From the NCBI GenBank assembly GCA_945920215.1, contig CAMEJM010000010.1, positions 1 to 60,901 on the forward strand: a stretch of 60,901 bases of DNA, read 5' to 3'. The DNA comes from an uncultured bacterium. Lineage in GTDB: Bacteria > Bacillota > Clostridia > Oscillospirales > CAG-272. Shown piece after piece: positions 14,962 to 56,838 of this stretch. The translations under genes were made by a program, and so were the position numbers. The notes beneath the pieces are model-generated. The model was not told the origin of the DNA. It saw nothing but the letters and a program-made list of their open reading frames with translations, and ran no database searches. Each line of letters starts with the position of its first letter. Within the stretch, counting starts at the first letter, position 1.

Positions 14962-15077
14962 GCCAGCGGGATGCGGAACATATACCGCGGCGCTCGCGCG
15001 CTCTTCGTCCGACAGGCAACTCCCCGTCCCGTCGGCACTGCGACCCGAAAGGTCTCGCATATGTCCTACTCTGTTTC
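14962..15077 (-). ncRNA. THF (tetrahydrofolate) riboswitch
   Basis: The minus strand shows the family elements in order: GAGTAG near the 5' end, ATATGCG pairing later with CGCGGTATAT, a variable hairpin with TTTCGG, GTGCCGAC pairing with GTCGGACGAAG, an internal GGGA segment, and a closing TTCCGCATCC. It begins within a few bases of the predicted transcription start and precedes folT, the classic target. Structure assigned by pattern, not by a covariance model. Confidence 0.75.
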
Positions 15078-54180: not shown

Positions 54181-54654
54181 ATGCAAATCAGACGCGCGGA
54201 AACGAAAGATATTGATACGATTCTGCTCCTGCTCCGACAGGTGCTGGAGCTGCACGCGCAGCTCCGCCCGGATATATTCAAATCCGGCACCGAAAAATAC
54301 ACGCGGGAGGAGCTGGATAAGATTCTGTTCAGCGACGCCACCCCCGTCTTCGTCGCGGAAAACGACGAACAGAGGGTTGTGGGCTATATCTTCTGTGTTC
54401 TGCGCCGTCAGCCGTTCGGCACTACCATGCGAGATTTCAAAACGCTGTTCATCGACGATTTCTGCGTGGACAGCGCCTGCCGCGGGCAGCACGTCGGGAA
54501 AGCCTTGTTCGACTTTGCCCTGCAATATGCCAAATCGCAGGATTGTTACGACGTTACGCTTAACGTCTGGGAGGGCAACGACAACGCCCGCGCGTTCTAT
54601 GAAAAAATGGGGATGTTCCCCAAGGAAACGCAAATGGAGATCCTTGTGAAATAA
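54181..54654 (+). CDS. GNAT-family N-acetyltransferase
   Basis: Acetyltransferase fold (157 aa) with IRRAETKDIDTILLLL at the start, the acetyl-CoA loop VDSACRGQHVGKALFDFA and the C-terminal WEGNDNARAFYEKMGM. Substrate unknown. The ATG at 54181 follows AAAGAGAG. It is 168 bases after mnmA and is followed at once by a GC hairpin and the first variable-hairpin array. Confidence 0.88.
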   Translation: MQIRRAETKDIDTILLLLRQVLELHAQLRPDIFKSGTEKYTREELDKILFSDATPVFVAENDEQRVVGYIFCVLRRQPFGTTMRDFKTLFIDDFCVDSACRGQHVGKALFDFALQYAKSQDCYDVTLNVWEGNDNARAFYEKMGMFPKETQMEILVK

Positions 54655-54670
54655 TCCCCGCGACGGTTTA

Positions 54671-54702
54671 GCGGCGTAGCGATAGGGATATCGCCACGCC
54701 GC
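54671..54702. other. GC hairpin after the GNAT gene, ahead of array 1
   Basis: GCGGCGT pairs with ACGCCGC, and inside it GCGAT with ATCGC, separated by one mismatch. No T tract follows. It directly abuts the variable-hairpin array, just as the hairpin at 56633-56698 precedes array 2. Confidence 0.7.
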
Positions 54703-54945
54703 AACTATATTTGCCTTACGGCAAGTGATATGCCTGCCGGCGTGATATTTTGCTTACGCAAAGTGATATTTTCCCTGTCGGGAAAGTGAAGGCAAATATA
54801 ATAGCACTTTGACTGAAGTCAAAATATAACGCAAGCTCCTTGCATATCACTTTTAGCCGCAAGGCTAAAAATATAACTTAACGCAATAGTCTTTTGTGGT
54901 CAAAAAAGCACACTACGTTTCGCGACTGCGAAGTAAAGTGTGCTA
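54703..54945. repeat. Variable-hairpin array 1 with GTGATAT/ATATAAC linkers
   Basis: A string of short perfect palindromes, each different, joined by nearly constant 7-base linkers. Hairpins: TTGCC-TTAC-GGCAA (54711), GCC-TGCC-GGC (54732), TTTGC-TTAC-GCAAA (54749), TTTCCC-TGTC-GGGAAA (54770), TTTGAC-TGAA-GTCAAA (54808), GCAAG-CTC-CTTGC (54831), TTTTAGCC-GCAA-GGCTAAAA (54851). Linkers are GTGATAT on the left half and ATATAAC or its kin ATATCAC on the right. TATATTTGCC (54706) also pairs with GGCAAATATA (54791), closing the left half. A larger hairpin AGCACACT/AGTGTGCT (54908-54943) ends it. No protein is encoded. Confidence 0.85.
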
Positions 54946-55031
54946 TATTTTATTTATTAGTAAAATCCCTATGGAAACTGCGGTTTTTCCGTCTTGATCC
55001 CTTTCTCATCCTTATTTACCGCTTCAATTCA

Positions 55032-55061
55032 ACGCGCCGCCGCATTTTTGCGGCGGCGCGT
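55032..55061. other. GC hairpin between array 1 and the alcohol dehydrogenase
   Basis: Perfect 12-bp stem ACGCGCCGCCGC/GCGGCGGCGCGT around ATTTTT, with no T tract after it on either strand. Confidence 0.7.
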
Positions 55062-55070
55062 CATTGATTC

Positions 55071-55107
55071 AAAAAGGGGGCTGCCGCTTATTCCGAGCGG
55101 CAGCCCC
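55071..55107 (-). terminator. Terminator of the alcohol dehydrogenase gene
   Basis: On the minus strand GGGGCTGCCGCT/AGCGGCAGCCCC stem followed by CTTTTTG. Confidence 0.85.
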
Positions 55108-55137
55108 GATACGGGATTGCTTATATAGCGTTGGGGA

Positions 55138-56355
55138 TCAGAAATCCACCTCGGTGTCGTAGTAGCAGCACTTCAGCAGCTTCTCCATCTCCTCCACGGA
55201 GGGCTGGCGCGGGTTGGAGCCGGTGCAGGCGTCGCCCAGTGCGTTGACGGCGATGTCATGCACTCTTTCGAGGAAGACGTTTTCGGGAACAAAGCCCTGT
55301 TCCGTCGGATAGCTGTCGGCACCGTAGTTCTTGATGCAGTGCGGGATGTTCAGCGCGTCGTTCATGCCGCGGAGATAATCGATCAGCAGACGGATCTTTT
55401 CCTCCTGCGTGTTGCCGCCCAGTCCCATGAAGTCCGCGATAGCGGCATACCGCTTTGCGGCAGTGGGATCCTTGGAGTTGAACGCGATGACCTTCGGCAG
55501 ATACATGGCGTTTGCGGCACCGTGAATGATGTGCGCGCCGTAGTCGGCGAACGCCGCGCCGGTCTTATGCGCCATGGAGTGAACGATACCGAGCAGAGCG
55601 TTGGAGAACGCCATACCGGCAAGGCACTGTGCGTTGTGCATACTGTCGCGCTTTGCCATATCGCCGTTGTAGGAATCCACCAGGTCGTTCTGGATCATCT
55701 TGATGGCATGGAGGGCAAGCGGGTCGGTATAATCGCAGTTCGCGGTGGACACATACGCTTCAACCGCGTGGGTCATCGCGTCCATACCCGTGTGCGCCAC
55801 CAGCTTCTTCGGCATGGTCTCTGCCAGATCGGGGTCGACGATTGCCACATCCGGCGTAATCTCGAAGTCGGCGATCGGGTATTTGATGCCCTTTGCGTAA
55901 TCGGTGATAATCGAGAATGCGGTCACCTCGGTCGCAGTGCCGGAGGTGGAAGAAATCGCGCAGAAATGCGCCTTACGGCGGAGCTTGGGCAGACCGAATA
56001 CCTTGCACATATCCTCAAAGGTCGTTTCGGGATATTCGTACTTGATCCACATTGCCTTTGCCGCGTCGATCGGCGAACCGCCGCCCATCGCGATGATCCA
56101 GTCGGGCTGGAATTTCAGCATGGCGTCCGCGCCGCGCATCACGGTTTCCACGGAGGGATCGGGTTCAATCCCCTCAAACAGCTCCACTTCCATGCCCGCT
56201 TCTTTCAGGTAGGCAATTGCTCTGTCCAAAAAGCCGAACCGCTTCATGGAGCCGCCGCCCACGCAAATCATTGCACGCTTGCCTTCAAAGGTCTTGAGCG
56301 CTTCCAGCGCGCCCTTGCCGTGATACAAATCTCTGGGTAATGTAAATCTTGCCAT
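55138..56355 (-). CDS. Iron-containing alcohol dehydrogenase (group III)
   Basis: NAD(P)H-dependent Fe alcohol dehydrogenase (405 aa). GGGSPIDAAKAMW binds the cofactor, SSTSGTATEVTAFSII is conserved, and the metal ligands lie in HTGMDAMTHAVEAY and GIVHSMAHKTGAAF. Such enzymes make or use ethanol, butanol or propanediol in fermenters; the substrate is open. I chose the second ATG (56355), eight bases after AAGGAGC; the first ATG is too close to it. Upstream lies the palindrome AAATATCGATATTT (56449-56462), a possible operator. The gene is bracketed by the two variable-hairpin arrays. Confidence 0.93.
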   Translation of the reverse strand: MARFTLPRDLYHGKGALEALKTFEGKRAMICVGGGSMKRFGFLDRAIAYLKEAGMEVELFEGIEPDPSVETVMRGADAMLKFQPDWIIAMGGGSPIDAAKAMWIKYEYPETTFEDMCKVFGLPKLRRKAHFCAISSTSGTATEVTAFSIITDYAKGIKYPIADFEITPDVAIVDPDLAETMPKKLVAHTGMDAMTHAVEAYVSTANCDYTDPLALHAIKMIQNDLVDSYNGDMAKRDSMHNAQCLAGMAFSNALLGIVHSMAHKTGAAFADYGAHIIHGAANAMYLPKVIAFNSKDPTAAKRYAAIADFMGLGGNTQEEKIRLLIDYLRGMNDALNIPHCIKNYGADSYPTEQGFVPENVFLERVHDIAVNALGDACTGSNPRQPSVEEMEKLLKCCYYDTEVDF

Positions 56356-56737: not shown

Positions 56738-56838
56738 GCTTTGCAAGCGTGATATTTTGCTATGTAAAAGATATTTTCGCCTTACTGCGAAAGTGATATT
56801 TCGGCTGTACCGAAGTGAAATTGCTTGTTCCACAAACA
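56738..56838. repeat. Variable-hairpin array 2
   Basis: Second, shorter array of the same design as 54703-54945: GCTT-TGC-AAGC (56738), GTGATAT, a degenerate TTTGC unit, TTCGC-CTTACT-GCGAA (56775), AGTGATAT, TTCGG-CTGTA-CCGAA (56800), GTGAAAT, then TTGT-TCC-ACAA. Stems differ from those of array 1 but the linker is the same. Confidence 0.75.

Follow-up and report, generated by a model that had tools for sequence, protein, structure and literature searches.

REP and BIME sequences are dispersed polar palindromes found between genes, and group IIC introns prefer terminator hairpins. Two further systems that are already in print are Gut-1 and the intervening sequences (IVSs) of 23S rRNA. Gut-1 is filed in Rfam as a small RNA (RF01706; type Gene; sRNA), and its consensus joins three hairpins by the 7-nt linker GUGAAAU. 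Weinberg et al. 2010 (PMC2864571) list it as restricted to the human gut and as known from environmental sequences alone. IVSs that carry an S23/IVP ORF are structured inserts in hairpin loops of 23S rRNA, and the encoded protein belongs to the PF05635 family (23S_rRNA_IVP) (PMC4990558, PMC11270868); the role of this protein and the purpose of IVSs are posed as an open question in PMC4990558. PF05635 genes have also been reported in cas loci (PMC3936711), and a PF05635 homologue is reported in PMC10053308, namely Avd, the accessory protein of DGRs, whose partners are a reverse transcriptase and an RNA template.

The array described here is located in a window of 60,901 nt, the whole stretch of DNA that was analysed, which is contig 10 of a 1.59-Mb genome that is 98% complete. 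A sequence-only reading of this DNA had claimed at least seven adjacent palindromes separated by a constant 7-base linker that flips orientation midway. The palindromes were borne out: seven small hairpins were located, and six of them (H1, H2, H3, H5, H6, and H7) are each trailed by exactly 7 nt. On the forward strand, on which all features of the element are given, H1 (TTGCC-TTAC-GGCAA, 54711–54724), H2 (GCC-TGCC-GGC, 54732–54741), and H3 (TTTGC-TTAC-GCAAA, 54749–54762) are each followed by GTGATAT (54725–54731, 54742–54748, and 54763–54769, respectively), and H4 (TTTCCC-TGTC-GGGAAA, 54770–54785) reads TTCTCTC..GAGAGAA in other copies. In the right half the linkers are in reverse orientation, with ATATAAC (54824–54830) after H5 (TTTGAC-TGAA-GTCAAA, 54808–54823), ATATCAC, the reverse of GTGATAT (54844–54850), after H6 (GCAAG-CTC-CTTGC, 54831–54843), and a linker-like ATATAAC (54871–54877), the last of the array, after H7 (TTTTAGCC-GCAA-GGCTAAAA, 54851–54870). 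The flip was therefore seen where it had been described. The linker takes these three forms and is missing between H4 and H5, where a 22-nt junction (54786–54807) lies midway.

The array is part of a larger unit. Alignment of the copies within the same genome placed the ends of a 309-nt element at 54670 and 54978, the sense strand (+) being set by PF05635-bearing relatives; the unit thus extends past the originally proposed 54671–54945. From left to right, the unit consists of a left hairpin (54671–54702; 14-nt arms that are 93% complementary, with 4 nt between them), AACTATAT, the array, a right-end hairpin (AGCACACT..AGTGTGCT, with TTCGC/GCGAA as its inner part, 54907–54944), and the right end AATCCCTATGGAAAC (54964–54978), which is common to 18 copies with small changes. 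In several copies the slot of the right-end hairpin holds a hairpin of other sequence, for example AGCTCAC..GTGAGCT in copy L095. An outer stem had also been proposed to close the left half, and its arms are present (54706–54717 pairing with 54789–54800), but it shares bases with H1, to which it is an alternative, is nearly invariant among the copies, and has no covariation support. No ORF of at least 60 amino acids overlaps 54670–54978, and a PF05635 ORF is absent from the window copy, which is located between the ends of two convergent ORFs, a GNAT-like ORF (54654) and a dehydrogenase-like ORF (55138), both named by eye. An Rfam search of the window gave no rRNA match. Because the window copy thus lacks both the rRNA location and the ORF, it was not classed as an rRNA IVS. 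The same search also gave a match to the THF riboswitch aptamer at 14962–15075 on the minus strand (55.7 bits).

The sequence-only reading could not match the array to a named element. That statement fails, as the left half (54702–54774) matches the Gut-1 covariance model with 54.3 bits, above the gathering score of 50, and GTGATAT here stands in the place of GUGAAAU in the consensus. The array is a dispersed repeat in its own genome, which contains 46 Gut-1 matches at E ≤ 0.001; at E ≤ 10 there are 69 matches, 14 of them over the cut-off, and 9 of 14 control genomes also give matches, none over the cut-off. The left half has 24 copies at E ≤ 5.1e-19, and five copies including that of the window are near full-length with at least 84% identity. 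For L095, L096, and L098 the unit is 96–98% identical and the 300-nt flanks align at only 31–44%; these sites were therefore taken as unrelated. The pattern AAGTGATATTT occurs 33 times in this genome, whereas no other genus member among 29 has more than four occurrences (range per genome, 0–4; reversed control, 0–3), and it was accordingly read as a local burst. No empty site was found among the 29 other genus genomes sampled, the best match at the neighboring gene being 77%, and insertion was therefore inferred from the flanks.

A number of further sequences in this genome and elsewhere resemble the element. A second, shorter array with GTGATAT-type linkers is located at 56740–56835 of the window (Gut-1 match of 31.5 bits, below the cut-off) and adjoins a G+C-rich GAGGGGGCGCCCGCCGG..GAGGAGTGG stretch, with similar stretches seen by eye beside the arrays L113, L018, and L019. 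The top Gut-1 matches of the genome (72–73 bits) belong to arrays with ATTTCAC/GTGAAAT linkers and repeated similar blocks at L001:1240-1680 (G000:C19) and G000:C21:18-435, the C19 stretch being the one that was read. On an unchanged stem, the left hairpin has one of two loops, AATCCCT (L101, L103, L106, L107, and L110) and AGGGATT (L095, L096, and L098), as if the hairpin had been inverted. Parts of the element (20–48%) are 76–83% identical to phage records from human faeces (MT835718.1 39663-39818, MT835476.1, and MT835522.1), a pattern scan of viral contigs gave 0 matches, and there were no plasmid matches.

If Gut-1 is what Rfam takes it to be, the array would be a trans-acting small RNA. 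The match over the cut-off agrees with this, as does the table of Weinberg et al. 2010 (PMC2864571), which marks Gut-1 with Y in its first column and n for cis-regulatory and counts it with the candidate noncoding RNAs. We nevertheless regard this reading as highly unlikely. The 46 matches in one 1.59-Mb genome fit a repeat, as do near-identical copies in unrelated places, their terminator-like flanks, and their position upstream of PF05635 genes, and the two promoter-like sites that were found are both on the minus strand, compared to 1.1 expected. Unlike the entry in Rfam, Gut-1 is here part of dispersed elements; in addition, of 20 loci chosen for their linkers, 10 have a Gut-1 match over the cut-off that lies upstream of, and on the same strand as, a PF05635 gene. 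The evidence here speaks for a mobile element.

In many copies, the left and right flanks form the opposite arms of a stem that resembles an intrinsic terminator, as in AAAAAGTGACCCC-[unit]-GGGGTCACTTTTT, AAAAAGACAGTC-[unit]-GACTGTCTTTTT, and AAAGAGGAGCCG-[unit]-CGGCTCCTCTTT. Of 25 printed copies, 18 were used in a test of exact complementarity, the right end not being settable in L101, L103, L105, L109, L110, L112, and L113. Own flanks were complementary over 9.4 bp compared to 5.96 bp across copies (0 of 100000 permutations), and at least 7 bp were found in 14 of the 18 copies compared to 84 of 306 cross pairs, the value for L108 coming from off the usual position. When positions were fixed, G-U was allowed, and Watson-Crick pairs were counted, the 17 copies that remained without L114 gave 10.1 pairs compared to 5.2 (0 of 100000 permutations), and 14 of these 17 reached at least seven Watson-Crick pairs as opposed to 51 of 272 cross pairs (largest, 12). 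Insertion within a structured hairpin was thus found for the family of this genome (14/17). The target stem of the window copy is weak: its 5-bp stem, formed by GACGG (54662–54666, 3 nt off the left end) and CCGTC (54989–54993, 10 nt off the right end), is the second shortest of the 17, although its arms are spaced from the ends like the longer arms elsewhere; L091 (4) and L114 have no clear stem. At the Gut-1 loci of relatives the target signal is weak as well (996 of 50000 permutations for 24 of the 26 loci), although individual loci such as L051 (16 bp) are strong cases.

A classical MITE of an unrecognised parent transposase would likewise be short, ORF-less, and dispersed, and in several copies the ends are related, ATAGGGATT being present at the left and inverted at the right. 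The transposase search behind this alternative covered Y1_Tnp, plus RVT_1 for retroelements. Inspection by eye of the flanks of 18 copies revealed no target duplication, however, the copies are located within hairpin stems, and the gene that recurs as a neighbor is of the PF05635 family. We consider a MITE an unlikely origin.

The array could also be a domesticated host element, kept for its function as a bidirectional terminator or a 3′-end protector between convergent genes. The window copy does lie between convergent ORF ends, and in 15 of 16 copies (L091 and L114 left out) folding predicts that the two terminator arms find each other over the insert, but shuffled inserts allow this pairing about equally (mean of 0.82 compared to 0.87), and the burst of AAGTGATATTT in this one genome is local. 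We consider this explanation improbable. Since shuffled inserts behave almost alike, we make no claim that the structure serves to save the terminator; the proposal that the insert keeps the terminator closable is unsupported at equilibrium. A terminator scan of 54500–55200 gave four sites compared to 0.8 expected (55107–55077, 54622–54608, and 54845–54829 on the minus strand and 54729–54744 on the plus strand), and neither the right-end hairpin nor the target stem of the window copy was among them.

The pairing of the hairpins is under selection, as judged from double changes among the copies and from linkers that are kept while stems turn over in the wider family. Over 32 pairs of the left part, 98.8% of cells pair in 21 copies of this genome (19 distinct), compared to 37–60% for slid control structures; of the 23 copies considered, L111 (a deletion) and L112 (another left end) were left out. 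Double changes were observed at 10 of the 32 pairs (47 such cells) and 0 of 500 shuffles reached the observed values, these counts coming from related copies in which the events are not independent. The double changes fall in the left hairpin (7 of its 13 counted pairs) and in H4 (3 pairs). RNA folding gave z = −7.3 for the plus strand and −8.7 for the minus strand, with 0 of 100 dinucleotide shuffles as good in either case, and AAGTGATAT occurs four times in the window as compared to 0.21 expected. Simple counts in the window alone are weak, with one run of three or more hairpins compared to 0.3 per shuffle. The earlier suggestion of selection for structure rather than sequence is backed by the covariation and by linkers that outlast stems. 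The stems had been called unrelated; this is true between hairpins and less so between copies, because H2 and H3 scarcely vary among the copies of the family of the window element.

The relatives that do carry an ORF link these arrays to PF05635. Both of the PF05635 genes in the genome adjoin Gut-1 matches. In one case, on contig 14, a copy of the Gut-1 core (L112, the same as L132; relative at G000:C14:24369-24677) is followed by the PF05635 ORF, and the array has the same Gut-1 core and linker as that of the window. To the left of this core, as judged by eye, the 5′ arm of the preceding hairpin lies inside the apparent 3′ end of the upstream ORF, and one arm of that hairpin may be an inverted copy of the target sequence. 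Within the genus, 67 of the 80 PF05635 matches from 30 genomes were considered (four duplicates left out), using on each side only loci with at least 250 bp. Runs of three or more hairpins were present upstream of 30 of 60 genes and downstream of 4 of 61, and in 1 of 44 distant control windows; the mean number of hairpins was 6.0 upstream (350 bp), 2.5 downstream, and 2.4 in the controls. A scan of titled genomes, nearly all of them Clostridia-type MAGs, found at least 584 loci, and the best 80 of these gave a similar picture, with such runs at 26 of 75 loci upstream, 4 of 77 downstream, and 2 of 122 controls, and means of 4.9, 2.3, and 1.8 hairpins, respectively.

Of 291 genomes that represent the class, 47 contain Gut-1 (33 over the cut-off) and 87 contain PF05635: 39 genomes have both, 8 have Gut-1 only, 48 have PF05635 only, and 196 have neither (Fisher p = 1.2e-16, the genomes not being independent). 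As only 3 of the 26 Gut-1 loci of relatives have a PF05635 ORF within 1.5 kb, most arrays are without the gene.

Other features of the PF05635 loci were also counted. Terminator scans were not significant, whether near the genus genes (6/54 upstream, 8/58 downstream, 0/24 control) or in the named locus set (8/72 upstream, 12/72 downstream, 4/75 control). A tRNA on the same strand lies 208–302 nt upstream of the PF05635 gene at 14 of 60 scanned loci, with no control counted and L180–L189 left out; four of these are tRNA-Cys and may be orthologues. An inverted repeat of at least 15 bp, of the kind known from rRNA IVSs, closes around the PF05635 ORF at 4 of 48 loci compared to 1 of 384 cross pairs. 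The PF05635 genes of L121 and L122 have no hairpin array; their flanks carry TGCAAAATGC-type repeats instead, with 18 and 25 bp of pairing between the two sides of the ORF, which is nearer to the IVS plan.

The same linker is often found with PF05635 genes that are related to each other, the linkers including GTGATAT, GCGATAT, GTGAAAT, TGAAT, GTGAAGT/CTTCA, CATCAT, GTTATGA, ATTTCAA, GCTAAAT, TATGTAAT, and ATGATATA. The wider family generalises the picture seen in the window, with unrelated stems, a constant linker, and a flip midway; 18 of the 67 genus loci yielded fewer than two linkers. For the 93 elements that each have two or more linkers, the Mantel correlation with protein identity was 0.50 for linkers and 0.26 for stems (0 of 3000 permutations each). 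Linker similarity is 0.60 at 70–80% protein identity compared to 0.12–0.13 below 50%, and the corresponding values for stems are 0.30 and 0.18–0.19. Linkers are no more alike within a genome (0.197) than between genomes (0.191), which argues for descent of the elements and not for a habit of the host. The linker correlation would also arise without any binding if array and gene had descended together as a single unit. Among four-base loops, the T type (UNCG or anti-GNRA) outnumbers the G type by 38 to 4 in forward units, and the reverse units have 2 and 13, respectively; 60 of 102 loops in forward units and 42 of 57 in reverse units belong to neither class. Loop class thus tracks linker orientation, and the reverse half therefore looks as if built of inverted units. 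As a guide to the choice between RNA and single-stranded DNA the tetraloop classes were discarded, as they do not tell the two apart.

Polar palindromes would also be expected if the array were a repeat of the REP/BIME type that depends for its movement on a RAYT (Y1 HUH) transposase acting on hairpins of single-stranded DNA, and hairpin targets suit such chemistry. The genome has a single RAYT-like Y1 transposase gene (L060:1456-2232; match at G000:C5:32098-32343), whose protein matches NCBIfam NF047646 (E = 6.8e-16; 58.5 bits, below the cut-off of 80) and PDB 4er8 (E = 2.2e-5). Relatives of this protein are found in only 5 of 30 genus genomes, distant RAYTs having been sought in the own genome only, and in 3 of the 23 Gut-1 genomes common to both searches. 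None is present in G004 or G005 (93 and 95% complete), despite 41 and 12 Gut-1 matches, and no hairpin array was seen by eye beside the RAYT-like gene. RAYT was therefore rejected as the general driver, and movement of the array itself by a RAYT appears quite unlikely. The likeness to REP/BIME or MITE sequences that had been suggested for the array accordingly extends to the traits of a mobile repeat, near-identical copies dispersed between genes, and not to a tie with a REP transposase; unlike in REP/BIME, the linkers change with another protein family. A reverse transcriptase was likewise rejected as a general partner. RVT_1 matches occur in 5 of the 30 genus genomes but not in the own genome, which sets these elements apart from DGRs with Avd. 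This absence, and an Rfam search of the window that gave no intron match, also distinguish them from group IIC introns, with which they share the preference for terminator hairpins.

The explanation that we favor, with a probability of roughly 60%, is that the window array belongs, as a member without an ORF, to a mobile IVS-like family, composed of hairpins and a PF05635 protein, that targets hairpin loops. The elements would be made of polar units, each a hairpin with a family-specific linker, set in two inverted halves. The AlphaFold2 model of the PF05635 protein has four helices (mean pLDDT of 91.9). Its sequence has a match in PDB entry 2rld (E = 8.6e-28) and a weak one in 2gsc (XCC0516; E = 0.0063), entries with five chains each. 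We infer that this predicted four-helix bundle binds the repeated linkers as displayed by the hairpins, for which five binding sites per protein ring would be an attractive putative match to the solved five-chain relatives. The protein may then mobilise its own element and, in trans, ORF-less arrays into exposed hairpin loops, by analogy with the 23S rRNA IVSs that replace rRNA tetraloops. Several observations count against this explanation. PF05635 is missing from 8 of the 47 genomes of the class in which Gut-1 was found, and five of the eight are at least 90% complete; G005, G020, G021, and G043, each with a GTGATAT-type PF05635 locus, have only 0–1 occurrences of AAGTGATATTT. The absence of an empty site, the 5-bp target stem of the window copy, the weak target signal in relatives, the terminator scans near PF05635 genes, and the loci with fewer than two linkers, all given above, likewise speak against it.

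Compared to the rRNA IVSs, which share the insertion into a hairpin loop, the structured insert, and, in ORF-bearing relatives, the PF05635 protein, the elements described here are located in terminator-like stems outside rRNA, are present in many copies, and are built as rows of short hairpins between which the linker stays constant; no ORF is present in the window copy. We place these hairpin-array elements outside rRNA among the IVS-like insertion elements. Among the open-access literature searched, mostly as titles and the openings of abstracts, no work was found that connects PF05635 with Gut-1 and hairpin arrays, and none that describes such insertion into terminator loops.

These results link the PF05635 family to multicopy hairpin elements outside rRNA, provide many of its subfamilies with a candidate recognition sequence in the form of the linker, and re-read an Rfam small RNA. 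Intrinsic terminators are suggested as an insertion niche of little cost to the host. More tentatively, PF05635 proteins could possibly be the specificity factors of widespread transposase-less elements, in which a pentameric ring of four-helix bundles would read the repeated linker presented by the hairpin row and drive copies with or without the gene into hairpin loops, be these of intrinsic terminators or rRNA tetraloops, and of which Gut-1 would be the 5′ module.
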